Of a stretch of 64,000 bases of DNA, positions 15,294 through 32,507 are shown piece after piece; positions within the stretch are counted from its first letter, which is position 1; every line of letters starts with the position of its first letter. A program made the position numbers and the translations under genes. The notes under the pieces are model-generated. The model was given only the letters and a program-made list of their open reading frames with translations, had not been told where the DNA came from and did not search any database. Origin of the DNA: Janthinobacterium sp. 67. Its GTDB lineage: Bacteria; Pseudomonadota; Gammaproteobacteria; Burkholderiales; Burkholderiaceae_D. Where the stretch lies: contig NZ_PGES01000001.1 in NCBI RefSeq assembly GCF_002797895.1, positions 1,736,001 through 1,800,000 on the forward strand, written 5' to 3'.

Positions 15294-15382
15294 GCGAAAT
15301 AGGCAAGGTATCGCTCCCGCACGATTTCGGCTAAGCTGTGTCCTATGATCAACATTGCTGGCCGCCTGGACCGCAACAACCG

Positions 15383-16333
15383 ATGCATTTAATCAAAGAC
15401 GGGCTCGACTTCGCCCCCTGGCTCGATGCCGCCGCCGGCAGCAGCGTGGGCGCCGGCCCGCTGCCGCGCCGCGAGAACCAGGATAACTTCCTGCTGATCG
15501 ATGCCAGCGGCCACGCCGTCTGCCTGTCGCGCCAGGCGCCGTTCCACTGCCAGGTGCCTGGCTGGCCACGCGGCCATGTGCGCGCGGCCGTGCTCGACGG
15601 CATGGGCGGCCACGGCCAGGGGCGCGAAGCGGCGGAAGCGGCCGTGCAAGGCTTGCTGGCCGTGCCCGCCTGCCTCGATACGGCCAGCCTGGCTGCCAGG
15701 CTGGATCAGTTGCACACGCGCTTGCAGGATACCTTCGCCAGGACGACGCCAGCCCAGGCGCGTCCACCCGGCACCACCCTGACCTTGCTGGAAGTGCCGC
15801 CCGGCGAAGCGCCGCTGCTGTATCACGTGGGCGATTCGCGCCTGTATGAAATTGCCGACGGGGCGGCCAGCATCCTCACCGTCGACCACGTGCCGGCCAC
15901 CGTGTATGCCATGCGCGGCGCGCTCGACGAGACGCGCTGGCGGGCCACCGTGCATGGCGAGCACCATCCGCAAATCTCGCAGGCATTTATCCTAGGCAAC
16001 GCCATCAGCGACAGCTTGCAGCTCGACAAGCCATTAATGGGCCTCGATGCGGCCACCTTGCCGCCCTTCCTCGCGCATCTGGGCGACCGCCGCGTGCTGC
16101 GCGTGCGGCCCGGCGCCCACTATCTGCTGGCCAGCGACGGCTTCTGGGCCTGCGACGACCCGCTGGCTCTCACGGCCCGCTGGCCCGCCCTGTGTGCCGG
16201 CAAGACTGCGGCACAGGCCGTCACCGCCCTGTTGGACGATTTCCTCTCCCATCCGCCAACAGGTTTACATAGCGACAACCTTACCGTGCTGGCGCTGCGC
16301 TTCGATGCGGAGTTCACCGTCCCAAGCGGCTAG
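15383..16333 (+). CDS. PP2C-type protein phosphatase
   Basis: The 316-residue protein carries the PPM/PP2C motifs in order: RRENQDNFLL, AVLDGMGGHGQG, HVGDSRLY, LASDGFWACDD and HSDNLTVL. The Asp residues in these blocks bind the two catalytic Mn/Mg ions. It should remove phosphate from Ser/Thr residues in the cytoplasm; no membrane segment is present. An in-frame GTG at 15338 is an alternative start, but the ATG at 15383 gives the normal family N-terminus. A kinase of the matching type is encoded at 25249-27570 and an FHA protein at 17015-18649, so it may act in that network. Its 3' end overlaps the convergent DUF2177 gene by 20 bases. Confidence 0.87.
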   Translation: MHLIKDGLDFAPWLDAAAGSSVGAGPLPRRENQDNFLLIDASGHAVCLSRQAPFHCQVPGWPRGHVRAAVLDGMGGHGQGREAAEAAVQGLLAVPACLDTASLAARLDQLHTRLQDTFARTTPAQARPPGTTLTLLEVPPGEAPLLYHVGDSRLYEIADGAASILTVDHVPATVYAMRGALDETRWRATVHGEHHPQISQAFILGNAISDSLQLDKPLMGLDAATLPPFLAHLGDRRVLRVRPGAHYLLASDGFWACDDPLALTARWPALCAGKTAAQAVTALLDDFLSHPPTGLHSDNLTVLALRFDAEFTVPSG

Positions 16334-16733: not shown

Positions 16734-17014
16734 GGTCGTCTTTCGGCGTCAGGCGGCGCGTGGGGAACTGTTGCGCCAGCATAATGCAAAAAACGGCACC
16801 AGGGGGCGCATGAATGGGGAAGCAAGTCCATGACATATCAAAATAACATATCCAGAAAGATATAAAATGTGTTTTTGAGCAATTATTTCCAGGGCATGCA
16901 TGACGAGGTGTGACCAGGGCAACGAATTTGGCCAAAAAGAGCGCATTCCGCTGCCGCGAAAGTTGCCAAGCAGGCGCAAAAGCGCGTAAGCTCTCATGTA
17001 TAACAGAGGGCAGA

Positions 17015-18649
17015 ATGTCCCCGCTCGATTCGAGTCAGAATGTCATGAAAAAATGCAGCAACCCGGAGCACCCGCACTGTACGTTCTGGGTCTTGCCTAG
17101 GGATACCGTCTGCGCGGGCAACCACCCGCAAGCGACGACTGCCCCCAGCAGCTACGACCTGTTGACCGCACTGCGCAGCGCCCGTTCCGAGCCATCGGCA
17201 ACGGCGCTTCCGCACGCCCCTGCACATGATTCTGATAGTCGCGATGCTGTCATTCGCGATGCCGCCATTCAAACGGTAAGCCGCTCCGTGGGGGCCTGCG
17301 CCGCCCCCCCGGCGTTCACGCCAGCGCCCGTCGCGCCATCACCGGTCCCTCCCGCCTACCAGCCCGTGCAAGCCCACCTGCACATCAGCGGCTTCGACCC
17401 GCGCGCGGCAGGCGGACGGCAAACCCTGAAGATGGAGTTGCGCGGCATGAGTGCCGCCTGCGCGCCGCAGCTGACCTTGCGCCTGCGCTCGGACCTGATC
17501 CCGCGCGGGCACGTGCAGCATGATTTCGTGCGCACCACGCGCGGCGACTGGCGTCCCGTGTTTGTCGAGTTTTCCTCGCGCAACAAGGAACACGGGCAAT
17601 ACCAGATCGAAGTGGAAGTGCACAGCCACGTCGACGGCGCCGTGGCGCAGAAATGGGTATGCACGTTTGTCATCCTCGTGCCGCGCCGCGACGCCACCCT
17701 GACGGAAATCCACCAGATATTCCTCAGTACGCACAAGAACGTGCGCGTGATGGCCGACGACGCGTCGATCGCCCGCGTGACGGGCGGCGATGGCTGCAAC
17801 CTCGACGTGACGGCGCGCAATGCCGGCATTGCCCACGTGGATCTGTCCGCGCCGCAAGGCAAGATCGACATGGGCTTTACCACCATCGCCTGGGACGAGG
17901 AGTTGATCGAAGTCGACCTTCCCGCCGCCAGCCACTGCCATCCGCACCCGAGCCAGGCCGCCTGTCTCGTCAATGCGGCGCCGGAAGCGGGCGAACAGCG
18001 CCAGATCCGCCTGTTCGCGCTGGAAGAATGCATGCTGGGCCGCTTCGAACTGGTGGATCCGGAAGCCGATGTACTGCTCAGCCATTTCAGCCCCGATGGC
18101 CAGGACAACAATGGCTTGACGCGGCGCCTGTCGGGCCGCCACGCCATTATCCGGCGCGGCCAGCAAGGCTTTGAAATCGAGGATGTGTCGCGCTATGGTT
18201 TGCTGCTCGACGGCGTCTGGCCCGGCAAGCACAAACCCGTACCCCTGCGCCTGGGCATGCGCATCGAATTGTCTGCCAGCATCAAGGGCATCGTCGTGCT
18301 CAGCGTCACGGCCCTGCTCGCGCATGGCGTGATCCTGCACCGCATCGACCACGGCGCCCGCGCCGAATGCTTTTATCTGCTGCTGCCCGACACCCAGCCC
18401 ACGCCGGCCAGCCACCTTGCCACGCCGCAAGCCAGCGGCTTGCCCGTGCTTTTCCACCGCAACGGCGGCTTCTGGCACCTGGACACGGCCAGCGGCAAGG
18501 AAACGGCGCTGGCCCCCGCCACCGCGCTCGACAAGCTGAGCGGCTTCGCGCGGCACAAGCGCTTCGCCAGCGAACCGTATCCGGAGTGCTGGATCATCCG
18601 CACCGAAGGCGCGGCCCTGTGCGACAGCGCAACCATGCAAACGGCCTGA
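17015..18649 (+). CDS. FHA-domain protein with Cys/His-rich N-terminus
   Basis: The 544-residue protein contains an FHA domain at about residues 335-405: MLGRFELVDPE, then the phosphopeptide-binding LSGRHAIIRR and a GLLLDG end. FHA domains bind phosphothreonine, so it is a likely reader of the Ser/Thr kinase signal. Residues 11-40 hold CSNPEHPHC and CAGNHP, a pattern that could bind zinc. Between them and the FHA domain lie a Pro/Ala-rich linker and a beta-rich region (about 125-320). No signal peptide. The ATG at 17015 follows GAGGG; another ATG at 17045 lacks a ribosome site. The middle region is not recognised. Confidence 0.78.
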   Translation: MSPLDSSQNVMKKCSNPEHPHCTFWVLPRDTVCAGNHPQATTAPSSYDLLTALRSARSEPSATALPHAPAHDSDSRDAVIRDAAIQTVSRSVGACAAPPAFTPAPVAPSPVPPAYQPVQAHLHISGFDPRAAGGRQTLKMELRGMSAACAPQLTLRLRSDLIPRGHVQHDFVRTTRGDWRPVFVEFSSRNKEHGQYQIEVEVHSHVDGAVAQKWVCTFVILVPRRDATLTEIHQIFLSTHKNVRVMADDASIARVTGGDGCNLDVTARNAGIAHVDLSAPQGKIDMGFTTIAWDEELIEVDLPAASHCHPHPSQAACLVNAAPEAGEQRQIRLFALEECMLGRFELVDPEADVLLSHFSPDGQDNNGLTRRLSGRHAIIRRGQQGFEIEDVSRYGLLLDGVWPGKHKPVPLRLGMRIELSASIKGIVVLSVTALLAHGVILHRIDHGARAECFYLLLPDTQPTPASHLATPQASGLPVLFHRNGGFWHLDTASGKETALAPATALDKLSGFARHKRFASEPYPECWIIRTEGAALCDSATMQTA

Positions 18650-19632: not shown

Positions 19633-19662
19633 CGCCGATTGACGGAGGTCGCATGGCAATGT

Positions 19663-19681
19663 GATAATGAGTATCATTCTC
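19663..19681. promoter_or_regulatory. Fur box of the fecI cassette
   Basis: GATAATGAGTATCATTCTC matches the 19-base Fur consensus GATAATGATAATCATTATC at 16 positions. It lies 67 bases before the fecI start, so iron-loaded Fur would silence the cassette. Confidence 0.85.
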
Positions 19682-19748
19682 AAACAGCCCAGCCAGCCGG
19701 CACCCCCGCGTTCCGTCAGCCCAGCTCTTCCCTTGCCTGGAGAACGCA

Positions 19749-20267
19749 GTGAGTACCGTCAGTCCCACCCATGCCAATCACCTGAGCACCCTGTACAGCG
19801 AGCATCACGGCTGGCTGTATGGCTGGCTGCGGGGCAAGCTGGGCAACCGCGCCGAGGCGGCCGACCTGGCGCAGGACACGTTCTTGCGCTTGCTGGGCAA
19901 GCGCGATTTGACACCGCTGGCACCGCTGCGCGAGCCGCGTGGCTACCTGGCGACCATCGCGCGCGGCTTGCTGATCGACCGCTACCGGCGCCAGGCGCTG
20001 GAACAGGCCTACCTGGAAGCGCTGGCGCAGCAAGCCGAACCGGTATCGATCAGCGCCGAAACGCATGCCATCATCATCGAAACCCTGCTGGCCATCGACC
20101 GCCTGCTCGACCGCCTGGGCGCGCGCACGCGGGCCATCTTCCTGCTGGCGCAGATCGAGGAGCTCAGTTATGTGGAGATCAGCCGGCGCCTGGGCGTATC
20201 CTTGCCCACCGTGAAAAAGCACCTGGTGCGCGCCTACACGGAATGCCTGATGCTGGCGGCCGGCTGA
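19749..20267 (+). CDS. FecI-type ECF sigma factor
   Basis: The 172-residue protein has the sigma-70 region 2 (DLAQDTFLRLLGKRD, then YLATIARGLLIDRYRRQALE) and region 4 with a helix-turn-helix (LSYVEISRRLGVSLPTVKKHLVRAY) of FecI-like ECF factors. It would direct RNA polymerase to the receptor gene after a signal through FecR. Start is a GTG at 19749 with GGAG 6 bases upstream. The stop overlaps the fecR start by one base (TGATG), so the pair is translationally coupled. A Fur box precedes it. Confidence 0.92.
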   Translation: MSTVSPTHANHLSTLYSEHHGWLYGWLRGKLGNRAEAADLAQDTFLRLLGKRDLTPLAPLREPRGYLATIARGLLIDRYRRQALEQAYLEALAQQAEPVSISAETHAIIIETLLAIDRLLDRLGARTRAIFLLAQIEELSYVEISRRLGVSLPTVKKHLVRAYTECLMLAAG

Positions 20268-21229
20268 TGTTCGGCGCATCCTCGTCCACTCCTATCGCCC
20301 GCAAGGTCCTGGCCGCCGCCGCCCACTGGCACGTGGAACTCCAGTGCGGCAGCGCCGACCCGGTCGCCCTGCAGGCATGGCGCGACGCCAGCGCCGAACA
20401 TGAGCGGGCCTGGGAACTGCTGCGGCACATGGATGGCCAGCTGGCCACGATACCGGCGGCGCTGGCGATGCCTGCCCTGCAGGCGGCGCAGCAGCGCCGG
20501 CGCAGCGCCGCCAAGATACTCGCCCTGCTGGTGGCGGCCGGCGGCGGCATCGCGCTGGGCCAGGCAGGCCTGCAGTCCGCGCCTTGGCAAGCGTGGACGG
20601 CGTCCTTGCGCACGGCGCCGGGCCGGCGCCGCCACGTGACCTTGGCCGATGGGGGGCGCATGGAAATGAACACGGATAGCGCGCTCGATGTCGCTTACGG
20701 CGCCACGCACCGCTGCATCCGCCTGCACCATGGCGAAATCATGATCACGACGGCGTCCGATGCGCGCCCCTTCCTCGTCGACACGCCGCACGGCTTGATC
20801 CGCGCGCTCGGTACGCGCTTCGGCGTGCGCTGCGATGACGATGGCAGCACGGTCAGCGTCTACGAACACGCCGTGGAAGTGCGCTGCGCGGCGCGCCCGG
20901 ACGCCGTGCGCCGCCTCCAAGCGGGACAGCAGCTGCGTTTCAGCGCAACCGGCACGCAGGACGTGCAGGCCATGCCCGCGCACCAGGACAGCTGGCTGCG
21001 CGGCATGCTGGTGGCCGCCGACTGGCCCCTGCAGCAACTGGTGCAGGAACTGGCGCGTTACCGGCGCGGGCGCCTCGCGTGCCACGCGTCCGTGGCGCGG
21101 CGGCCCGTTACGGGCACGTATCGGCTCGACGATATCGACGCCGTGCTGGAAAGCCTGTGCGCCTCGCACGGGCTGCAAGTGACGTACTTCACGCGCTACT
21201 GGGCCACGGTGGCGGCCCGGGCTACATAG
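20267..21229 (+). CDS. FecR-type anti-sigma/signal transducer
   Basis: The 320-residue protein has the FecR plan: a cytoplasmic N-terminal DUF4880-like part (residues about 12-50, with CGSADPVALQAWRDASAEHERAW split around the Trp), one membrane span (about 84-101), and a periplasmic FecR domain (RHVTLADGGRMEMNTDSALDV, then RALGTRFGVR). It receives the ligand signal from the receptor's N-terminal domain and controls the sigma factor. The ATG at 20267 overlaps the fecI stop. The receptor gene follows after 126 bases. Confidence 0.92.
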   Translation: MFGASSSTPIARKVLAAAAHWHVELQCGSADPVALQAWRDASAEHERAWELLRHMDGQLATIPAALAMPALQAAQQRRRSAAKILALLVAAGGGIALGQAGLQSAPWQAWTASLRTAPGRRRHVTLADGGRMEMNTDSALDVAYGATHRCIRLHHGEIMITTASDARPFLVDTPHGLIRALGTRFGVRCDDDGSTVSVYEHAVEVRCAARPDAVRRLQAGQQLRFSATGTQDVQAMPAHQDSWLRGMLVAADWPLQQLVQELARYRRGRLACHASVARRPVTGTYRLDDIDAVLESLCASHGLQVTYFTRYWATVAARAT

Positions 21230-21355
21230 TTATTTTCAGTTTTTTTGCGCCAGGGGTTGGTGTTTCGCTGCGCTGCTTCGGCTTCATGAATAGGTAGCCG
21301 ATTCACACGCCGATTCACGTACCAATTCTTATCCCTTAGAGCAGAAAGACCGAGC

Positions 21356-23830
21356 ATGCAGCTGACCACCCCCGTCCTCCATCCCGCCGCGCGCGCCATC
21401 CGCCTGGCCGTCATCGCCATGGCTTGCGCCGCCCCCGCCGCCTTTGTCGCCGCGCCCGCGCTGGCGCAAGGCCAGGCCGCCACCGCCCCGCAAGCCTATG
21501 CCGTACCGGCCGGCCCGCTGGCCACCGCCCTCAACGACTTTGCCGTCGCCGCCGGCGTCAGCCTGTCGACCGACCCGGCGCAGACGCGGGGACTGCGCTC
21601 GCCCGGCGTGCGCGGCAGCTTTGGCGTGACCCAGGGCTTTGCCCAGGTGCTGGCCGGCAGCGGCCTGGAAGCCGTGCAACTGCCGAACGGCGCCTACGTG
21701 CTGCGCCAGGCAGCCGCACCCTCCGCAGCGGCGGCCGGCGTGGAAAAGACCATGGCGCCCGTGACGGTCAGCGCCAGCATGGAGCGCGACCCCGTCAGTG
21801 AGCACAGCAATTCGTATGCGGCGCGCGCCGTCACCGTCGGCAAGGGCGTGCAGACCCTGCGCGAAATTCCCCAGTCCGTCAGCGTCGTTACGCGCCAAAA
21901 GATGGACGACCAGAATCTCAACACCATCGACGCCGTGCTGGCCAACACCACCGGCATCACCATGTACGACAGCCCCATGGGCGGGCGCTATGTGTATTCG
22001 CGCGGCTTCATGGTCGACACTTACCAGTTCGACGGCGTGAACCGCGCCATGTACTACCCGCAGGCGAACAGCTTTACCAGCAATACGGCCGTGCTGGACC
22101 GCGTGGAAATCGTGCGCGGCGCCACCGGCTTGCTGCAGGGCACGGGCTCGCCGGGCGCCGCCATCAACATGGTGCGCAAGCGTCCGCTGGCGGAAAAGCA
22201 GGTGCAGCTGGCGCTGAGCGCCGGCCGCTGGAACGACGTGCGCGGCGAAGTCGACGTCACCGGCCCCTTGAATGAGTCGGGCAGCATCCGCGGCCGCGCC
22301 GTGGCCGCGCATGAGCAGCGCGATTATTTCTATGACGTGGCCGACAGCCGCACCGACGTGCTGTATGGCGTGCTGGAATTCGACCTGGCGCCGGGCAGCA
22401 AGCTGACGACGGGCGCCAGCTACGAGAAACTGCACTCGACACCCTTCTTTTCCGGCATGGCCCGCTACCGCGATGGCAGCGATCCGAAGCTGCCGCGCGA
22501 AACCTTCCTCGGCGCCGACTGGAACCGCTGGGCGAGCCGCCAGACGGCCGTCTTCGCCGAATTCGAGCACCGTTTCGACGCCGACTGGCTGTTCAAGGCC
22601 AGCGCCAACTACACGCGCGAGCGGCATGACGTGAAATACATGTTCAGCCAGGGCGCGATCGATCCCGCCACCATGGCCGGCATGATGATGTATGGCGGCG
22701 TGTTCGACTATGGCAGCACCAACAAGGGCCTCGACCTGTCGCTCGACGGCAAATTCAACGCCTTCGGCCGCCGCCACGGCTTCAGCGCCGGCATCAACAC
22801 GAACCGCCTGGAAAGCGACAGCGATTTCAGCCTGGCACTGCTGCAGCAGCCGAACAACCCTCTGCGGCCCAATCACGGCGTGGCCGAACCGAGCGACGCC
22901 TGGTTCCGCGAAAACAGCTACCGGGGCGATCCCAGCGTGACGAAAATGACGCAGACGGGCGCCTATGGCGTGGCCCGCTTCAGCGTCAGCGATCCGCTCA
23001 CCGTGGTGGCGGGCGCGCGTGTGTCGAACTACAAATGGAGCAGCGTGTACCGCGACACGGGCGAGGTGTATATCGATCCGTACCGCGAAAACGGCGTCGT
23101 CACGCCGTATGGCGGTGTGATCTACGCGTTCGACAAGCGCTGGTCCGGCTATGCCAGCGTGTCCGACATCTTCCAGCCGCAAAACCAGCGCACGGCCGAA
23201 GGCGCCCTGCTCGACCCGCTCAAGGGGCGCAACCTGGAAGTGGGCGTCAAGGGTGAACTGTTCGACGGCAAGGTCAATACCTCGCTGGCGCTGTTCCGCA
23301 TCGAGCAGCGCAACCGCGCCGAACTCGACCTGGTCAACACCTGCTCCAGCGGCACGGAATGCTATTTCTCGGCGGGCAAGGTGCGCAGCGAAGGCGTCGA
23401 TGCGGAAATCAGCGGCGAAGTGGCACCGGGCTGGCAGCTGTTCGCCGGCTACACCCTGAACAATTTTAAATATCTGGAACAGACGTCGAATGCGGGCGTG
23501 ATGTTCGCCAGTACCTACTCGCCGCGCCACATGCTGCGCGCGTGGAGCGACTACCGCCTGCCCGGCGCCCTGCAAAAGTGGAGTGTGGGCGGCGGCGTGA
23601 ACTTCCAGACGGAGAGCTCGCGCGTGACGCAGAACGTCACGGTGGCGCAAGGCGCGTATGCCTTGTTCAGCGCGCGCGGCGCCTACCAGATCGACCGCAA
23701 CTGGACGGCGTCGCTGTCCGTGACGAACTTGCTCGACAAGCGCTACTACCAGACGGTGGGCGCGCCTGCGTGGGGCAATTTCTATGGCGAACCGCGCAAG
23801 GCGCAACTGACCTTGCGCACGCGTTTCTAG
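21356..23830 (+). CDS. TonB-dependent siderophore receptor with STN signalling domain
   Basis: The 824-residue protein has a signal peptide (cleavage after LAQ near residue 38), an STN secretin/TonB N-terminal domain (about 45-118), a plug domain (TLREIPQSVSVVTRQKMDD and VEIVRGATGLLQGTGSPG) and a 22-strand outer-membrane barrel ending in the C-terminal Phe (LTLRTRF). The plug text resembles FpvA/FhuE/FoxA-like ferric siderophore receptors. The STN domain and the upstream fecI-fecR pair show that it signals its own expression. Ligand unknown; no biosynthetic genes are near, so it probably takes up a xenosiderophore. It converges on the pirin gene 9 bases away. Confidence 0.92.
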   Translation: MQLTTPVLHPAARAIRLAVIAMACAAPAAFVAAPALAQGQAATAPQAYAVPAGPLATALNDFAVAAGVSLSTDPAQTRGLRSPGVRGSFGVTQGFAQVLAGSGLEAVQLPNGAYVLRQAAAPSAAAAGVEKTMAPVTVSASMERDPVSEHSNSYAARAVTVGKGVQTLREIPQSVSVVTRQKMDDQNLNTIDAVLANTTGITMYDSPMGGRYVYSRGFMVDTYQFDGVNRAMYYPQANSFTSNTAVLDRVEIVRGATGLLQGTGSPGAAINMVRKRPLAEKQVQLALSAGRWNDVRGEVDVTGPLNESGSIRGRAVAAHEQRDYFYDVADSRTDVLYGVLEFDLAPGSKLTTGASYEKLHSTPFFSGMARYRDGSDPKLPRETFLGADWNRWASRQTAVFAEFEHRFDADWLFKASANYTRERHDVKYMFSQGAIDPATMAGMMMYGGVFDYGSTNKGLDLSLDGKFNAFGRRHGFSAGINTNRLESDSDFSLALLQQPNNPLRPNHGVAEPSDAWFRENSYRGDPSVTKMTQTGAYGVARFSVSDPLTVVAGARVSNYKWSSVYRDTGEVYIDPYRENGVVTPYGGVIYAFDKRWSGYASVSDIFQPQNQRTAEGALLDPLKGRNLEVGVKGELFDGKVNTSLALFRIEQRNRAELDLVNTCSSGTECYFSAGKVRSEGVDAEISGEVAPGWQLFAGYTLNNFKYLEQTSNAGVMFASTYSPRHMLRAWSDYRLPGALQKWSVGGGVNFQTESSRVTQNVTVAQGAYALFSARGAYQIDRNWTASLSVTNLLDKRYYQTVGAPAWGNFYGEPRKAQLTLRTRF

Positions 23831-25248: not shown

Positions 25249-27570
25249 CTAGTCGAGCGTGCGCGCCACCCTGAACCCCACGATATCGTTCGACAGCACG
25301 GTTGAAAAGCCGTTCCGCAGGGCCGAGCGCAGGTAGCGCGGGTGGTACAGCCACGAGCCGCCGCGCAGGATGCGCCGGCTGCTGTCGCTGCCCTCTTCCC
25401 ACGCGCTGCCATCGACGGGCGCGCCTTCGTAATTGTCGTGCACGACGTCCTGCACCCATTCCCACACATTGCCATGCATGTCGAACAGGCCCCAGGAATT
25501 CGGCGCGAAAGTGCCCAGCGGCGTCGTGCCGCCCCGGTACACGCCGCGCGGGCCGCCGTTATACACGTACAAGCCATCGTAGTTGGCTTGCTCGGTGCTG
25601 ATCGTGTCGCCCACATTGAAGGCCGTGCGCGTGCCGGCGCGGCATGCGTATTCCCATTCCGCTTCGCTGGGCAGGCGGTAGTGCCGGCCCGTGCGTTCGC
25701 TCATCCACGCCAGGTACAGCTGCGCGTCATTCCAGCTCACGCCCACCACCGGGTGCTGGTCGTTCTGCACGAAGCCGGGATTGTCCCAGTCCGTCTCGGA
25801 ACCGCCCGCCCAGCCGGTCGCCTTGACGAAGGCGCGCCATTCGCCCACGCTGACGGGGTGGCGCGCCAGCGCAAACGGGCGCTCGATGCCGACCCAATGC
25901 TGCGGCATTTCGCGCTCGAGCCACGTCTGCTGCGAGCCGGCCTGGATGGCGGCCTTGTGTTCCGTCTCGTGCGCGCCCATCTGGAAGCGGCCGCTGGGAA
26001 TCAGTACCAGTTCCGGCCCCTGGCCCGAGCCATCGAGAAAATCGTCGCGCAAGACGCCTTCCGCATTGGGCACCGGTTCCACGTGCTCGGCTTCCGGCGC
26101 CGGTGCGGATGCCGGTACCGGGGCAGCGGCTGCCGCGGCGCGGCTGGCCTGTTCCTTGCGCGCGCGTTCCTGCTCGGCGCGATAGGCCGCTTCCGCCTTG
26201 GCGACGATGGCCTTGCGCTGCAACTCCTGGTGTTCCTGCAAGGCGGTGGCCGCATCGGCTTCGCGGCGTGCGCGCAGCTGGCCGCGCAGCGCTTCCTTGC
26301 GCAGCTTGCGCGCCTCTTCCGCTTCGAAATGGCGCTGCGCCTCCTGTTCGCGGCGCAGTTTGTCCTGGCGCTGCTTTTCCAGCGCGGCGGCCTGGATCTC
26401 GGCCTTGCGGCGCTGGTCCAGTTCTTCCTGACGTATCCGGGCCTGCTTGAGTTCTTCCTCGCGGGCCTGTTCGGCGGCCAGCGCCGCTTCCCGTTGTTGC
26501 TGCGCCTGCTGCGCCGCGCGCGCCTGCTGCTGGCGCGCCTGTTCCGCCAGTTCTTCGGGCGACGGTCCGGCCGCGCGTTCCAGGCTTTCCAGCAAGGCTT
26601 GCACGGATTGGGGCCGCAGTTCCGGCGTCAGCGAAAACCCGTTCTGCAGCACTTGCCATTGCTGCGCGTTGAGCGCTTGCGGCGCCGATGGCAAATGGCT
26701 GGCATTGCGCGCATCGTCGAACGGCATGCGCCCTTCGAGCATCTGATAGATCATCACGGCCACGGCATACACGTCCAGGCGCGGGCTGGGCTGGCGCTGG
26801 TTGGCGCCGGCCTCGGGCGCCCGGTAACCGTGCGTGCCCGCATTCGGCATGTCCAGCGCCAGGCTGCTGTCCGCATTGCGCACGCGCGTAGCGATGCCGT
26901 AGTCGAGCAGCTTGACGTCGCCCTTCGCCGTCAGGAAGACATTGCCCGGCTTGATGTCGCGGTGCACGAGCTTGTGCTTTTCCCACGCATACGACAGGGC
27001 GTCGGCCACCGGCTGCAGCAGTTCCTGCACGGTGGACAGGGGCAGCGCGCCCGTGCGCGCCAGATAGTGCTCGAGGTCTTCGCCATCGAGGCATTCCATG
27101 ATGATGAAATAGCTGGCCGTGGCCGGGTCCTGCGCCCACTCGTAGACGCGGACGATGTTTTCATGCGCGAGTTTGCGCGCCTGGGTCGCTTCCTCGATCA
27201 GCAGCTTGGCATGGGTGGCGCTTTGCGTCAGCTGCGGCGGCAAGATCTTCAGCGCCACCATTTCGCTGCTGCCCAGCTCCGCGTGCGTGGCGAGGTCGGT
27301 TGCTTGCCACACCTGCCCCATGCCGCCCGTGCCGATCAGCCGCTCGAGCCGGTAGCGGCGGTTTTGCGGGCCGATTTCCTGGCCCGTCATGAAGCCCAGC
27401 TCCGTCCCCTGGCGCACGGGCGGCGGCGCGGGCACAGGCGCAACGCCTGGCGGCGCGTACTCGGCGTCGAGAATGGCGTTCTTGCGGCGTTCAAATTCCT
27501 GCTCGCTGAGCAGCCCGTCGTCGTGGAGGGCCCGCAGTTCCCGCAGTTTTTCTCGTGCTTTTTGCATCAT
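25249..27570 (-). CDS. Ser/Thr protein kinase fused to an FGE-sulfatase-like domain
   Basis: The 773-residue protein has four parts. Residues about 5-36 form a SHOCT-like motif (LRELRALHDDGLLSEQEFER). Residues about 73-345 are a Hanks-type kinase with the P-loop GTGGMGQVW, the catalytic VHRDIKPGN, LDYGIA in place of DFG, and GTHGYRAPE. A highly charged Ala/Glu/Arg/Gln coiled coil follows (about 370-530). The C-terminal 220 residues are an FGE/SUMF1/DUF323 domain (PVVGVSWNDAQLYLAW, LPSEAEWEYACRAGT, GLFDMHGNVWEW, GGSWLYHP). Chlamydial Pkn1 has a related kinase-FGE plan. There is no membrane span. It starts 20 bases after the double zinc-ribbon gene, so the two form a unit. The substrate and the role of the FGE part are unknown. 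Confidence 0.85.
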   Translation of the reverse strand: MMQKAREKLRELRALHDDGLLSEQEFERRKNAILDAEYAPPGVAPVPAPPPVRQGTELGFMTGQEIGPQNRRYRLERLIGTGGMGQVWQATDLATHAELGSSEMVALKILPPQLTQSATHAKLLIEEATQARKLAHENIVRVYEWAQDPATASYFIIMECLDGEDLEHYLARTGALPLSTVQELLQPVADALSYAWEKHKLVHRDIKPGNVFLTAKGDVKLLDYGIATRVRNADSSLALDMPNAGTHGYRAPEAGANQRQPSPRLDVYAVAVMIYQMLEGRMPFDDARNASHLPSAPQALNAQQWQVLQNGFSLTPELRPQSVQALLESLERAAGPSPEELAEQARQQQARAAQQAQQQREAALAAEQAREEELKQARIRQEELDQRRKAEIQAAALEKQRQDKLRREQEAQRHFEAEEARKLRKEALRGQLRARREADAATALQEHQELQRKAIVAKAEAAYRAEQERARKEQASRAAAAAAPVPASAPAPEAEHVEPVPNAEGVLRDDFLDGSGQGPELVLIPSGRFQMGAHETEHKAAIQAGSQQTWLEREMPQHWVGIERPFALARHPVSVGEWRAFVKATGWAGGSETDWDNPGFVQNDQHPVVGVSWNDAQLYLAWMSERTGRHYRLPSEAEWEYACRAGTRTAFNVGDTISTEQANYDGLYVYNGGPRGVYRGGTTPLGTFAPNSWGLFDMHGNVWEWVQDVVHDNYEGAPVDGSAWEEGSDSSRRILRGGSWLYHPRYLRSALRNGFSTVLSNDIVGFRVARTLD

Positions 27571-27589
27571 CTGGGGTAGAACGCTTCCG

Positions 27590-29914
27590 TCAAGGCTGCA
27601 AGGCGACGCCGCAGGCGGCGCAGAATTTATCTTCCGGATGGCCCGCGCGCTGCGCGTGGCCGTTCTTGCAGCGGGCCGGTGCTGCTGCTGCTGCGGCGGC
27701 GGCGCCCGGCTGCAGCGCCTGCGCCACGGCCACGCCCAGCTGCGCCTGCGCCGACAGGCCATGCGCGTGGGCCGCGTTCTGCAAGTTGATCAGGTCGAGC
27801 TGCTGGCGCCGTTCGCGTTCCGCCTGGCCTTCCAGGTAGTTGCGCTCCTGCGCCACGCTGTCCTGCGCCATGCGCATGGCGTCCAGCGGCGCGACGCTGT
27901 TCTCGGCCGCCGCCAGCGCCGCCAGCGCGTGGATCTGCTCGGCGCTCATGCCCGCCTGCAGCTGCGTTTTCAGCACTTGCGCCAGCACGGCCGCATTCTG
28001 CCCGGCGGCCATCGCCACCTTGCCCGTGTCGCTCAGCGAACCGATTTTCTCGATGCGGTCGATGTCGATGCGCGCCAGTTCGGCCGCGTGCGCCTGCTGC
28101 GCCAGCAGGGCTTCATATTCACCTTTCCAGCGCGCGTAATCGCTTTCGCGCTGCTGCGCCATGGCCAGCAGATCGCGCTGCCATTGCGCTTCCTGTTCCA
28201 GCTGGCGCAGCTGCTGGCGCTGTTCCTCGATGGCCAGCGCGTCGAGCTGCGCCAGCTGCGTTTGCTGCTGCAGCTGGCGCGCGTGCACGCCGTCGGCCTC
28301 GATGGTGCGCAGCAGCTTTTCCTGCTGCGCGATGGCGTCTTCGCGCGCGCCGCCGCGCCGCAGCGCCGCGACTTTTTCCGCGATTTCCGCCGCCTGCACC
28401 TGGGCCGCTTCATCCTTGTGCGCTTCGGCGCGCAGCAGTTCGCGCTGGCGCGCCAGCTGCATCTGGTCTTCCCACTCCTGCACCCGCTCCGCTTCGCGCT
28501 TGCGCGCCGCATTCGCCAGCATCAGGCCCTGCCACGCGGCCTGGTGCTGCTCCGCCTCCAGCTGCGCCTCGCGCCGGGCCGCCTCCGCTTCCGCCTGGCG
28601 CAGGCGCGCCAGCTGGGTGCGGCGGCCCGTCTCGTCGTCGATCAGCAGCGCGCTTTCCACCTGCTGCGCAATCGACTGCAAGTGCACCTGGTGCGTAAAG
28701 CGCTGCTGCGCCAGCTGGATCTGTTCGCGCCCGTGCAGCTGCGACAGTTCCAGCTCGCTGCGCATCTTGATGGCGGCCAGCGCCCGCACGTGTTCCCAGT
28801 TGGCCGCTTCGTCGGCCCGCTGCGCCCCTTTTTGCGCCAGTTCCTGTTCCAGCTCGCCCAGCGCCAGCGCGGCGCCATGGTCGAGCGCCTGGCGCCGCGA
28901 TTTCGCTTCCAGGATGCGGCCATACAGGTCGATCTGGCGCCCGCGCAGCGCTTGCAGGCGCTCCGCTTCCTGGTGGTTCAGTTCCGCCTTTTCCAGCGTC
29001 GCATCCTGTTGCAATTCCGCGCGGCGGTGCGCGTGGCGCGCCGCCAGTTCCTCGCGGCGGATGCGCTGCCACTCTTCCTCGTTATACAGCTGGTCGAGCT
29101 GTTTCATGCGCTCCAGGCTGTGCTGCTCGAGTTCCTGCGCCGGCAAGCCGCCCAGCCACAGGGTGCCGATGGCCGCATCGCCGTCGCCCGCGCGCTTGTC
29201 GTGCCGCAGGCTCAGCGTTTCCACGCGCGCCACGGCCAGGCCGCTGGGCGCCAGGCGCTGCGTCAGGGCCGATTGCAGGCGTTCGTTCAATTCGGGCCGC
29301 AAGTCGGCATTCGCGTCCATCTCGCGCAGCGCGCGGCTGCCGATGAATTCCAGCGCGATCTGGCGGACGGACGGCAGCAGCAAGGCGTGCAGGTGGGCGC
29401 GCGTGACGGCGCCCGGCGCGCGCATGAACTGGCGCGCGAACGCATCGGGCTGGCCCAGCGCGATGTCCACGCGCAGCGACGCGGCCACGTCCAGCAGCTC
29501 CGTGCTGGCCAGGCCGGGCAAGTCGAAGTCCAGGCTGACGGCGTCGGCGCGCGCGATCAGCACTTCGGCCGGGCGCGCCGGCAGTAGCGCGGGCAGTCGC
29601 GCGAAGAAGGCGGCGCTGTCGTAGTCGCCAGCCGGTATCAAGGTGAAAGCGTCCGATTGCACGATCCAGGCGCGCGACGCGGCCGGCACCTGCAGGCGCC
29701 GCGCGGCGCTGCCGAACAGCGAGGACAGTTCGCGCACGCCAAAGAACAGGGCCAGTTGCCCATCAGCAAGATGCCATTGATTGGCATGCAGCACCGCGTC
29801 GCTGTCGGGTGCTCCCAGCGACAAGCCGCATTGCGCGCAATAGCCGGCGGCGGCGCCGTTCTTGTGCTCGCAGCGCGGGCAGCGGGCGCCGCCAAAACCA
29901 AACAATTGGAACAT
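27590..29914 (-). CDS. Large coiled-coil protein with zinc ribbons at both ends
   Basis: The 774-residue protein opens with a CPRC-x10-CAQC zinc ribbon (Cys12, 15, 26, 29) and closes with a second ribbon, Cys749, His753, Cys765 and Cys768, after a poly-Ala linker. Residues about 40-260 are a globular beta/alpha region that resembles the SPFH/band-7-like part of YdjI-type virion-core-like proteins. Residues about 270-690 are almost continuous Glu/Gln/Ala/Arg coiled coil. No signal peptide or membrane span is seen. AGGAG lies 6 bases before the ATG at 29914. It precedes the kinase-FGE gene and is a candidate scaffold or substrate of that kinase. The family assignment of the middle is tentative. 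Confidence 0.8.
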   Translation of the reverse strand: MFQLFGFGGARCPRCEHKNGAAAGYCAQCGLSLGAPDSDAVLHANQWHLADGQLALFFGVRELSSLFGSAARRLQVPAASRAWIVQSDAFTLIPAGDYDSAAFFARLPALLPARPAEVLIARADAVSLDFDLPGLASTELLDVAASLRVDIALGQPDAFARQFMRAPGAVTRAHLHALLLPSVRQIALEFIGSRALREMDANADLRPELNERLQSALTQRLAPSGLAVARVETLSLRHDKRAGDGDAAIGTLWLGGLPAQELEQHSLERMKQLDQLYNEEEWQRIRREELAARHAHRRAELQQDATLEKAELNHQEAERLQALRGRQIDLYGRILEAKSRRQALDHGAALALGELEQELAQKGAQRADEAANWEHVRALAAIKMRSELELSQLHGREQIQLAQQRFTHQVHLQSIAQQVESALLIDDETGRRTQLARLRQAEAEAARREAQLEAEQHQAAWQGLMLANAARKREAERVQEWEDQMQLARQRELLRAEAHKDEAAQVQAAEIAEKVAALRRGGAREDAIAQQEKLLRTIEADGVHARQLQQQTQLAQLDALAIEEQRQQLRQLEQEAQWQRDLLAMAQQRESDYARWKGEYEALLAQQAHAAELARIDIDRIEKIGSLSDTGKVAMAAGQNAAVLAQVLKTQLQAGMSAEQIHALAALAAAENSVAPLDAMRMAQDSVAQERNYLEGQAERERRQQLDLINLQNAAHAHGLSAQAQLGVAVAQALQPGAAAAAAAAPARCKNGHAQRAGHPEDKFCAACGVALQP

Positions 29915-30246
29915 GTGTGACTCCTGATGAGAATAATGGTGTGCGCAACACGGCTGCCATGCCGATTCTAGCAGGATAGCCGGGCCTCACTTGCCGCGCA
30001 CGGCATGGGCATGGCAGTGCGCAGCGTCAGATAATGCCATAGAGCAATTGCATTCATATGCGCGGATACAGGGCTAATTAGGCCTCAATTCAAGCGGTCG
30101 CCCGCCAGCGTCGCGCGCAGGCATTTCAGCGCCGTTTTTTTGCAGGCCATCCCGCCAAAACCACGGCTGGTCGCATGCGCATGGCGCGCCGGCCCGCGCA
30201 TGGCTACAGTGCATGCATACCCACCCGCCACCCGAAAGGAACCATC
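29915..30246. other. Gene-free stretch between divergent genes
   Basis: This 332-base region holds the start signals of the zinc-ribbon gene (minus) and of the small exported protein (plus). An AT-rich patch lies near 30035-30090. No RNA gene, repeat or further reading frame with a ribosome site was seen. Confidence 0.5.
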
Positions 30247-30483
30247 ATGAAAGCCTTGAAAAACATGGAAGCCATCTTCACCATCGCCGTCGCCATCGCC
30301 TGCGGCGCCAGCTATGCCAGCTTCATGCAGCCATCGGCGGTCAGGACGGCCGACGTGGTGCAAGCGAACGCCATCCCCGTCGTGGTGGTCAGTGCCAAGC
30401 GCCTGACGGAACAGGAAAAGAAAATCTCGCTGATCGAGGAACGGCAAGCCTTGCTGGGCAACGCCACCGCCAGCACCTTGTGA
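30247..30483 (+). CDS. Small exported or membrane-anchored protein, 78 residues
   Basis: The 78-residue product has a hydrophobic N-terminal segment (AIFTIAVAIACGASYASF, about residues 9-26) that is either a signal peptide or an anchor. The rest is a short soluble part with a beta-like AIPVVVVSAKRLT and a charged helix (EQEKKISLIEERQALLG). AAAGGA lies 6 bases before the ATG at 30247; an earlier in-frame codon at 30175 has none. No homologue is recognised. It is followed by the promoter module of the next gene. Confidence 0.75.
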   Translation: MKALKNMEAIFTIAVAIACGASYASFMQPSAVRTADVVQANAIPVVVVSAKRLTEQEKKISLIEERQALLGNATASTL

Positions 30484-30588
30484 GCCTGCGATGCTGATCC
30501 CACGCCGCCTGGCGCGCGTTTGAATCCCGCCGCGCCAGGCCGCCATTTGTATCGGCCACGGATACACGGCCACACAGCATTGTGTCAA

Positions 30589-30639
30589 TTGTAATAAGTT
30601 GAATCAAAGGCGATCTGCCCGCCTGCAAGCGCCTATAGT
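30589..30639 (+). promoter_or_regulatory. Promoter module with TTGTAATAAGTTG, copy 2
   Basis: TTGTAATAAGTTG at 30589-30601 lies exactly 45 bases before TATAGT (30634-30639), which continues as TATAGTCCATTTCA. Both the 13-mer and the spacing equal those at 14690-14740. It serves the WxxGxW-repeat envelope gene starting at 30673. Confidence 0.7.
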
Positions 30640-30672
30640 CCATTTCAAGCAATCACCGAAATGGAGCACATC

Positions 30673-31368
30673 ATGAAACCCATCACACTCTACGCAGCAG
30701 CCATGCTTGCCATCAGCACCGCGGCTTTCCTGCCTGCGCAAGCGATGGCCCAAGGCCAGGTCGGCGTCAGCATTGTCATCGGCAACGCCCCGCCTCCGCC
30801 ACGGTTTGAAAGCGTGCCCGCGCCGCGCGCCGGCTATGTCTGGGCGCCAGGCTACTGGAACTGGGATGGCCAGCGCCACGTCTGGACCGACGGCGAATGG
30901 CTGCGCGAACGGGGCGGCAACCAGTACCGCCGCGCCGCATGGATACAGGAGAACAACCGCTGGCGCCTGGACCGTGGCGGCTGGGTCGAGGCACAGGTGC
31001 TGCCCGTGCGCTATGACGACATCCGCATCGCCCCGCCGCCGCCGCGCCGGGAAGCCATCCCGCGCGCGCGCCACGGCTACGTCTGGGCGCCCGGCCACTG
31101 GGAATGGCGCAGCCAGCGCTACGCGTGGACGCCAGGCGTATGGATCGCCGAACGCCCGGGCTACGTGTATGCGCCGCCCGCCTGGAACCAGCGCGACGGC
31201 CGCTGGCAGATGGAGCAAGGCCGCTGGTCGCGCGGTCCGAACGGCGACCGTGACCACGACGGCATCCCCAACCGCTATGACCGCGACAATGGCAACCGCC
31301 ACGACCGCGACGGCGACGGAGTTCCGAACCGCGACGACCGCAGGCCCGACAACCCTCGCCGCTACTAA
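30673..31368 (+). CDS. Exported WxxGxW-repeat protein with Ca-binding-type tail
   Basis: The 231-residue protein has a signal peptide (about residues 1-26, ending AQAMA). It then has at least two repeats of the YVWAPGYW(N/E)W type ([18 protein letters not shown] and [18 protein letters not shown]), which define the YXWGXW family, plus weaker W-rich copies. The C-terminus ([15 protein letters not shown] and [12 protein letters not shown]) looks like thrombospondin type 3 Ca-binding repeats. It should lie in the periplasm or outer membrane; function unknown. GGAG lies 6 bases before the ATG at 30673. It shares a promoter module with the glycine-zipper gene at 14789. Confidence 0.87.
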
Positions 31369-31379
31369 GTAGCGAACAG

Positions 31380-31412
31380 CAAGGCTACCCTTCGCGGTGG
31401 CCTTGTCATTTT
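31380..31412 (+). terminator. Probable terminator after the WxxGxW-repeat gene
   Basis: CAAGGCTACC (31380-31389) pairs with GGTGGCCTTG (31396-31405) with one G-T pair and a TTCG-containing loop, followed by TCATTTT. The T tract is short, so efficiency is uncertain. Confidence 0.55.
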
Positions 31413-31475
31413 CCCGACACATCCGTGTATTAAAATCGCGCGACGATCAATTACACTGCGCGAGAAAGATTCACG

Positions 31476-32507
31476 ATGGCGATGGAAACTGCCGGTTTTA
31501 CCTACGGTTCGGATACTTCGGGCCTGGTCTGGGGCTTCCTGTTTGGCCGCGAGGCGCAGCCGCTGGCCCTCGACTCGACGGCCGCGCTGGCCTGGCTGGC
31601 CGATGGCGCGGCCAGGCCGGCGCAGGAATTCGTCTGGCTGCATTTCAATCTGTCGCATGCGGCCAGCGAAAAATGGCTGATGGCGCACACGCAGCTGGCC
31701 GACGAATTCTATGAAACCCTGCACCAGGGTTCCCGTTCCACGCGCATCGAACAGGCGGAAAACACCCTGATCGCCGTGGTCAACGATGTGGTGCACAATT
31801 TCTCGTTCGAGGCGTCCGACATTTCCACCATGTGGGCCAGCGTGGCGCAAGACCTCGTCATCACGGCGCGCCGCGCGCCGCTGCAGTCGATCGAGCGCCT
31901 GCGCCAGGCCGTCATCAAGAACCACGAGCCGATCCGCTCATCGGTGGAGCTGCTGATTCATCTGCTGCGCGACCAGGCCGACGTGCTGGTCAACATCGTG
32001 CGCGACGCCGTGGCGCGGGTCGACGATATCGAAGACCACTTGCTGGCCGGGCGCCTGGTGCCGAAACGCGAAGACCTGGGCGCCATGCGGCGCGTGCTGG
32101 TGCGGCTGCAGCGCCTGCTGGCGCCGGAACCGGCCGCCCTGTTCCGACTGCTGCAACGCCCGCCCGCGTGGGTATCGGAGCTCGACAGCCTGGAATTGCG
32201 CCAGTCGACGGAAGAGTTTTCCGTCGTGCTCAGCGACATGTCCTCGCTACAGGAACGCATCAAATTGCTGCAGGAGGAGATCGCCGCCAGCGTCAACGAG
32301 GAAAACAGCCGCAGCCTGTTCGTGCTGACCATCGTCACCGTGCTGGCCTTGCCGATCAATATCATCGCCGGCATGCTGGGCATGAACGTGGGGGGGATTC
32401 CGCTGGCCCAGCATCCGCAGGGCTTCTGGATCATCGTCGCCATCATCGTCACGTTTACGGTCGTGGCGGGATGGCTGGTGGTGCGCGTGCAACGCAATAG
32501 TTCTTAA
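31476..32507 (+). CDS. CorA/ZntB family divalent metal transporter
   Basis: The 343-residue protein has a large soluble N-terminal domain and two C-terminal membrane spans. The first ends in GMLGMNVGGIPL, which contains the GMN motif of the CorA superfamily. The N-terminal text (GLVWGFLFGREAQPL, WLHFNLSHAASEKWL) points to the ZntB branch, which moves zinc across the inner membrane. It would work as a pentamer. No metal-responsive site is obvious upstream. A second ATG two codons in is an alternative start. Confidence 0.9.
   Translation: MAMETAGFTYGSDTSGLVWGFLFGREAQPLALDSTAALAWLADGAARPAQEFVWLHFNLSHAASEKWLMAHTQLADEFYETLHQGSRSTRIEQAENTLIAVVNDVVHNFSFEASDISTMWASVAQDLVITARRAPLQSIERLRQAVIKNHEPIRSSVELLIHLLRDQADVLVNIVRDAVARVDDIEDHLLAGRLVPKREDLGAMRRVLVRLQRLLAPEPAALFRLLQRPPAWVSELDSLELRQSTEEFSVVLSDMSSLQERIKLLQEEIAASVNEENSRSLFVLTIVTVLALPINIIAGMLGMNVGGIPLAQHPQGFWIIVAIIVTFTVVAGWLVVRVQRNSS

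Follow-up and report, generated by a model that had tools for sequence, protein, structure and literature searches.

A kinase-FGE protein and a zinc-ribbon SPFH protein as a candidate half of a four-part phosphosignalling circuit in Oxalobacteraceae

Here we describe two adjacent genes in a 64,000-nucleotide stretch of the 6.4-Mb genome of Janthinobacterium sp. 67 (NCBI RefSeq assembly GCF_002797895.1, contig NZ_PGES01000001.1, positions 1,736,001 to 1,800,000 of the forward strand), hereafter the window. One encodes a Ser/Thr kinase carrying a SHOCT and an FGE-like domain, the other a large zinc-ribbon protein assigned through its relatives to the SPFH superfamily. The features of the pair, in window positions, are as follows.

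25249..27570, minus strand: SHOCT - Ser/Thr kinase - coiled coil - FGE-like protein, 773 aa (Pfam), 3' of the SPFH gene
27469..27552, minus strand: SHOCT domain, residues 7-34 (PF09851, 7.6e-7)
26695..27354, minus strand: Hanks-type kinase domain, residues 73-292 (PF00069, 1.5e-41)
25261..26019, minus strand: FGE/SUMF1-like domain, residues 518-770, without the catalytic Cys pair (PF03781, FGE-sulfatase, 1.4e-58)
27590..29914, minus strand: zinc ribbon - SPFH - coiled coil - zinc ribbon protein, 774 aa, putative oligomeric scaffold (open reading frame; Band_7 in family members)
29828..29881, minus strand: N-terminal zinc ribbon, residues 12-29, CPRC..CAQC (invariant Cys; DZR sub-threshold)
29129..29806, minus strand: SPFH-derived domain, residues ~37-262, divergent in core Janthinobacterium (boundary from alignment to Band_7-positive relatives)
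27680..29128, minus strand: long charged coiled coil, residues ~263-745, boundary approximate (from composition and alignment, not from a coiled-coil program)
27611..27670, minus strand: C-terminal zinc-binding motif, residues 749-768, C..GH..C..C (sequence)

The two genes share the minus strand and are separated by 19 bases (27571-27589), the kinase gene starting with ATGATG at 27570. The initial annotation, made from the letters and their open reading frames, had counted 20 bases; the close spacing it stressed stands. Its description of a SHOCT-kinase-FGE fusion is borne out by the three Pfam matches listed above. The kinase is also not degenerate, a concern that annotation had raised: the catalytic Lys, the HRD motif and the D-[FY]-G motif are retained in all 16 aligned rows, window included. 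Hydropathy gave no transmembrane segment in the kinase-FGE protein, Pfam found no PASTA domain in it, and it scores 191.9 against the PknB_PASTA_kin model, whose cut-off is 450.

The FGE domain appears to have left enzymatic chemistry behind. A passage of PMC4505483 places the active-site cysteines of human FGE at C336 and C341; alignment to human FGE puts Y and L at these positions in the window domain, and neither is Cys in any of the 12 aligned rows that bear an FGE domain, the window among them. Of solved structures PvdO (1.2e-45), ToxD and FGE come closest, and against the NCBIfam PvdO equivalog the domain reaches 197.2 bits, below the cut-off of 500. In the four kinases of the genus-level group g56, perhaps Undibacterium (loci L055 to L058), the domain is cut to a short C-terminal stretch in three and L058 retains little; the C-termini of L055-L057 keep a remnant of about 20 residues, such as ISWEDAQRYLAALS. 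A formylglycine-generating role is thus unlikely, and because the catalytic cysteines are absent the domain probably recognises a ligand or partner rather than modifying it. The initial annotation had left both options standing; modification has lost ground on the cysteines and on the reduction in g56, and recognition remains as the default reading.

The partner protein is less easily placed. Its four N-terminal cysteines (C12, C15, C26 and C29) are invariant in 22 of 22 aligned rows, and the C-terminal ribbon is missing from five of them (the four g56 rows and L062). Against Pfam, the window protein gives sub-threshold zinc ribbons alone (DZR, 0.002), and SPFH/Band_7 is undetectable by Pfam in this copy. 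Band_7 (PF01145) is, however, found in 9 of the 22 aligned family members at E<=0.01, at best with 1.2e-9, and the L069 and L059 copies score over its cut-off. The match to PF13421, the Band_7_1 family in which we presume YdjI to sit, is weak (2 of 22 members, best 0.003) and stays below the cut-off where scores were seen; YdjI, offered initially as a model, is therefore set aside as probably a different family. No transmembrane segment was found by hydropathy in the window protein. Taken through its relatives, the large protein fits the SPFH superfamily and is compatible with a scaffold, as the initial annotation had proposed. Matches in the PDB to L37e and DinJ (best 0.075) were judged to reflect composition or zinc-ribbon likeness.

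The pair is a stable unit within one bacterial family. A scan of named genomes gave 162 relatives, of which the best 80 were kept (the named loci); 79 are titled as Oxalobacteraceae genera or Oxalobacteraceae bacterium, and the remaining one is a metagenome-assembled genome (MAG) titled Pseudomonadota bacterium. Adjacency had been set beforehand as the test of the two-gene unit, and the SHOCT-kinase gene lies directly 3' of the SPFH gene on the same strand in all 80. Co-occurrence was counted in 190 family genomes, taken as a 195-genome list minus five. The kinase is present at E<=1e-60 in 55 of the 190, and the identical 55 hold the SPFH gene; in 54 of them both matches lie on one contig within 160 bases of each other. 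In the exception, G061, the kinase is 3.2 Mb from the SPFH gene on the same contig and both are kept. The association is far beyond chance. SPFH relatives occur in 58 of the 195 family genomes and 7 of 44 genera; three of these 58 (G240, G242 and G243) are taken as outside the 190, and the kinase gene adjoins the SPFH gene in G240 (L037) and G242 (L050). Among 61 close genomes they occur in 34, that is, in 34 of 37 of the genus and in 0 of 24 others. A phylum-wide system was considered and dropped: clear matches came from just 2 of 398 genomes, plus one marginal 32-residue match (4.5e-4), in a search that scored at most two candidates per genome and may miss distant members.

The initial annotation was too narrow in stopping at these two genes. 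It missed a likely phospho-reader and a PP2C phosphatase that lie in the same window, as well as a module with a penicillin-binding protein (PBP) encoded upstream of the pair in many relatives. The first two are the following.

16910..18649, plus strand: FHA protein, 579 aa as listed (PF00498, 1.6e-5, over cut-off)
about 18062-18271, plus strand: FHA domain of this protein (Pfam)
15338..16333, plus strand: PP2C-type protein phosphatase, 331 aa (PF13672, 1.2e-5, over cut-off)

The FHA gene lies 6.6 kb and the PP2C gene 8.9 kb from the pair. The window FHA homologue was located by tblastn with the FHA protein of a g56 locus and then confirmed with Pfam; the ATG at 17045 is the likelier start of the gene, and the protein has an N-terminal Cys/His knuckle. 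Three of the g56 loci (L056, L057 and L058) have an uninterrupted same-strand run of FHA, SPFH and kinase genes. In the fourth, L055, the FHA gene precedes the pair by 3.3 kb on the same strand, and an opposite-strand TonB-receptor-like gene intervenes; the FHA assignment in g56 is by Pfam for L055 and L056. Among the 190 family genomes, FHA is present in 56, which are the 55 pair-bearing genomes and G103, a 68%-complete MAG. PP2C is present in 45, all within the 55, and in 0 of the other 135. Of the 67 named loci whose 3' flank is complete, 56 have FHA within 10 kb, and it is on the strand opposite to the pair in all 60 named loci where it was seen. Of the 80 named loci, 29 include PP2C, which shares the strand of FHA. 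The residues predicted to form the phosphothreonine site of the FHA domain are invariant (R in 60/60, S in 61/61 and H in 61/61 rows), as are the Asp residues presumed to bind metal in PP2C (32/32 rows).

Several observations accompany the FHA gene. A whole-genome Pfam search reported a sole FHA domain in the source genome (G000:C1:2147894-2148088, in an open frame of 364 aa); it did not report the window FHA domain, yet this is over the cut-off with hmmscan. In G061 the kinase, SPFH and FHA genes are at three separate sites, and the FHA homologue match (G061:C1:4531779-4533029) holds one in-frame TGA. Between the FHA gene and the kinase, the window (19661-23830) encodes a sigma-factor-like and a FecR-like protein, both read from their open reading frames, and a TonB-dependent receptor (Pfam). 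Long antisense open reading frames, such as one of 825 aa opposite the TonB receptor gene (21329-23806) and others elsewhere, seem to stem from high G+C and not to be genes.

Upstream of the SPFH gene, many relatives carry a module that the window lacks. In order, it encodes a PBP-type protein, a protein beginning with MRLPG, a small protein termed S, observed in a few loci, and proteins A and B. The PBP-type protein has about 1000 residues, one transmembrane segment, the STFK, SLN and KTG motifs and a Pfam Transpeptidase match; the MRLPG protein has 420 residues, A and B about 360 each, and MRLPG, S, A and B gave no Pfam or NCBIfam family. Module genes are present in 55 of the 80 named loci, which is 55 of the 60 outside core Janthinobacterium. 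The PBP-type, MRLPG, A and B genes occur together in 52 of the 80, and three more module-bearing loci are cut by contig ends (L115, L123 and L140, scored on A and B alone). MRLPG-type genes are found in 35 of the 190 family genomes, and none of the 12 sampled Janthinobacterium has one; G015 has B, and G000, G004 and G012 lack it. Core Janthinobacterium, including the window lineage, is without the module, and there a WXXGXW gene that flanks the module elsewhere directly adjoins the SPFH gene. In the window, this WXXGXW-repeat protein and a CorA transporter (30175-32507) mark the junction, at which J. fluminis-type loci and the G015 locus carry the module. In the latter locus (L069, 8617-10895) the kinase-FGE gene is split over two reading frames, through a sequencing error or a real frameshift, and the upstream module is kept.

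Attempts to name proteins A and B gave little. A profile comparison of A as a second SPFH protein returned a 0.5% probability, and its PDB matches to haemoglobin (best 1.7e-5) were judged to be composition or zinc-ribbon likeness. Protein B (for example L114, 8827-9891) repeats a V(L/M)ADR..RG motif in both halves and is possibly an internal duplication. A ChlI/Lon-like domain read in it by eye is unsupported in Pfam, NCBIfam and the PDB. B has 957 relatives at E<=0.001, and the 120 of these that were listed are unnamed, hypothetical or uncharacterised, one being labelled DUF927.

The history of the module was read from a quick tree of 84 loci, in which L058 is a long branch and L131 is less than half filled. 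The module state needs four changes on this tree, all forced by starred branches. Three of these are losses that fall within clades otherwise bearing the module: core Janthinobacterium, Duganella sp. Leaf126 and the CF458/violaceinigra clade. The fourth separates the g56 branch, where gain and loss are indistinguishable. The module thus appears to have been lost about three times.

After these losses, change was concentrated in one domain. The reference columns were those conserved across 95% or more of the module-bearing loci, three sister groups being excluded; an 84% deviation of the L140 SHOCT domain, an alignment or start artefact, was left in the comparison. Of 115 conserved SPFH-domain columns, the 20 rows of core Janthinobacterium broke 31.3%, the single Leaf126 row 13.0% and the four rows of the CF458 clade 11.1%, against 1.4, 0.9 and 4.3% in the module-keeping sisters and at most 5.1% among 49 other module-bearing rows. 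In the same three losers the kinase domain broke 3.5, 0.7 and 2.0% (other-row maximum 4.3%) and the FGE domain 4.0, 0.8 and 0.4% (other-row maximum 6.5%). The median dN/dS of the SPFH domain is 0.19 in core Janthinobacterium and 0.15 in module-bearing relatives (66 pairs each), and because of this low core value we read the domain as re-constrained under purifying selection, not decaying. Since the SPFH domain, and not the kinase or FGE domain, broke its columns after loss, it is suggestive, though not proven, that a surface of the SPFH domain was held by the module proteins and that the kinase, FGE and FHA parts serve a separate, constant function. Such release of a single domain could serve as a sequence-only predictor of the surface that binds lost partners; if this is right, nature has run the experiment three times, each loss of an arm having freed chiefly a single domain.

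On these grounds we lean, with slightly better than even confidence, towards a reading in which the pair makes up half of a Ser/Thr phosphosignalling circuit that Oxalobacteraceae assemble from four parts on an SPFH platform. The SHOCT-kinase-FGE protein would be the writer, the zinc-ribbon/SPFH/coiled-coil protein the platform, the FHA protein the reader and, in most carriers, PP2C the eraser. The platform would assemble as a membrane-associated oligomer, on which the kinase would dock through its SHOCT domain and coiled coil. Docking through SHOCT is suggested by the presence of SHOCT on the kinase and of an SPFH domain, here of the PF01145 type, on its partner: according to a passage of PMC3581485, the commonest associate of SHOCT is a band 7 domain, there PF13421. 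The non-catalytic FGE-like domain would bind a ligand or partner and tune the kinase. The kinase would then phosphorylate its own threonines or those of the platform, to which the FHA protein would be recruited, and the phosphatase would reset the circuit. In many relatives the outputs would include the bitopic penicillin-binding transpeptidase and the four upstream-encoded proteins without known family, so that in module-bearing relatives envelope or peptidoglycan synthesis is probably under the control of the circuit. Core Janthinobacterium has lost the module and kept the circuit genes while its SPFH domain was reshaped, which means that the output there must be a different one.

A number of observations weigh against this circuit. 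In the window, FHA and PP2C are on the other strand and are not co-transcribed with the pair; in loci with a full flank FHA is not found within 10 kb in 11 of 67 and PP2C lies within that distance in only 28 of 67, and PP2C is absent from 10 of the 55 system-bearing genomes. The co-occurrence is clumped in seven genera of one family and does not amount to 55 independent events. The SPFH assignment of the window copy rests on other family members, and the PBP link is missing in exactly the lineage of this genome. The SPFH release rests on three events on a quick tree with the long branch L058; the CF458 clade differs from its sister by only 11 versus 4%, and in core Janthinobacterium the coiled coils also loosen (13.2 and 15.1%, with 5.6 and 11.4% in the sister).

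The strongest competitor casts the same genes as a trans-acting controller of a type VI secretion system (T6SS) through the threonine phosphorylation pathway (TPP), with the kinase as PpkA, the phosphatase as PppA, the FHA protein as Fha and the FGE-like domain as a TagR-like input, TagR being FGE-like. An identical kinase/PP2C/FHA set appears in excerpts of PMC10482370 and PMC6657622. TssB is found in 49 of the 55 system-bearing and 45 of the 135 other family genomes, an association confounded by phylogeny and genome size. The source genome has a T6SS cluster in which eight open reading frames tested with Pfam are not kinase, FHA or PP2C, and searches of 39 kb of that region with the window kinase, FHA and PP2C proteins gave no significant match. 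However, TssB lies about 0.46 Mb away in this genome, no T6SS gene was recognised among the neighbours examined, and six system-bearing genomes, including all four g56, have no TssB match. The partners are an SPFH protein, joined in many relatives by a PBP; the TagH model, which has a cut-off of 120 bits, gives the FHA protein 14.2; and TagR is periplasmic according to part of PMC6657622, whereas the kinase-FGE protein has no transmembrane segment. We regard T6SS control as improbable, if still the best placed of the rivals. A membrane-stress effector of the PspA type, with the SPFH protein in the role of YdjI and the kinase governing the recruitment of PspA, is less probable again. The window SPFH protein does lack a transmembrane segment, as does YdjI, described in a passage of PMC8581546 as an SPFH protein without membrane anchor that is required for PspA localisation. 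The poor PF13421 matches speak against this kinship, and no PspA gene was recognised among the Pfam-scanned neighbours, some neighbours being unscanned and no genome-wide PspA search having been made.

Two further rivals turn on the FGE domain, and we consider both very unlikely. If it were a working formylglycine or PvdO-like oxidase that modifies a partner, one would expect the good match to PvdO and its place among the better-conserved parts of the protein; but the cysteine positions, the distance from the PvdO cut-off and the disappearance of all but a short stretch in the four g56 rows speak against it. In an anti-phage or conflict system the domain would recognise an invader and the kinase trigger the response, a scheme to which we give the least credence of all. 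PADLOC returned matches to the PD-T4-6 and mad6 models, and part of PMC7159879 describes FGE-type domains in cyanobacterial conflict systems. Yet among the 25 of 32 PADLOC matches listed, none reaches the FGE domain, which fits generic kinase homology, and none falls in the SPFH protein; the NCBIfam MAD6 score is 133.5 bits against a cut-off of 460, the neighbourhood is common to several genera and its genes are under purifying selection.

If the four-part circuit is right, Gram-negatives would have a kinase/reader/eraser circuit on an SPFH platform, tied in many carriers to a peptidoglycan transpeptidase. SPFH zinc-ribbon proteins would gain a concrete partner set, and the role of an FGE-like domain that is no longer an enzyme would become visible. 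A bolder version, which we put forward tentatively and hold at clearly less than even weight, is an undescribed phospho-controlled envelope platform: an SPFH zinc-ribbon oligomer would hold the PBP module with its SPFH surface and carry the SHOCT-docked kinase on its tail, with FHA reading and PP2C resetting the marks. Gram-negatives would then have put together, independently, an equivalent of the actinobacterial kinase/PBP cluster, and core Janthinobacterium would represent a natural knock-out in which the PBP arm is gone and the SPFH surface has been rewired to a new output. The domain types are each known; no description of their combination, their co-inheritance or the SPFH release after module loss was found in the open-licence PubMed Central literature searched.

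The initial statement that no described system holds both parts needs qualifying, as pieces of the arrangement occur elsewhere. Chlamydial Pkn1 carries a C-terminal FGE domain on a kinase, as does a SHOCT-kinase-PG_binding-FGE protein noted in a passage of PMC3581485, which also shares the N-terminal SHOCT; the window kinase differs in having no peptidoglycan-binding domain and in its constant SPFH and FHA partners. Excerpts of PMC10936438 report SPFH/coiled-coil/zinc-ribbon proteins, or a Ser/Thr kinase with a phosphatase and FHA, at archaeal ESCRT (endosomal sorting complex required for transport) loci. That inventory is, however, spread over different archaeal system types, and what defines those loci is Vps4 and ESCRT-III; here neither was recognised, no dedicated search having been made. 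YdjI of Bacillus subtilis, which acts with PspA, is likewise an SPFH protein without membrane anchor, but the window family matches PF01145 over PF13421, has a long coiled coil, two zinc ribbons and a kinase partner, and no PspA gene was recognised beside the window pair among the neighbours scanned.

Two further parallels combine the signalling parts themselves. The actinobacterial pstP-rodA-pbpA-pknA-pknB-fhaA-fhaB cluster, as given in part of PMC6554272, has a kinase, PP2C, FHA and, as in module-bearing relatives, a nearby PBP transpeptidase. The Oxalobacteraceae system lacks PASTA, has no recognised SEDS (shape, elongation, division and sporulation) gene and has an SPFH platform and an FGE-like domain instead; it belongs to a Gram-negative family, its FHA and PP2C genes are on the other strand, and the PBP gene is absent from the window lineage. 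The T6SS TPP pathway (PpkA-PppA-Fha, TagQRST) likewise joins a Hanks kinase, PP2C and FHA in one functional set, and the FGE-like input protein TagR is paralleled by the fused FGE domain of the window. It differs in that the window locus has no recognised T6SS gene among the neighbours examined, its kinase has no transmembrane segment and is fused to FGE, and the system has an SPFH/zinc-ribbon partner and is kept in six genomes without a TssB match. The circuit thus resembles both the T6SS TPP pathway and the actinobacterial pstP-pbpA-pknAB-fha cluster and is a member of neither.

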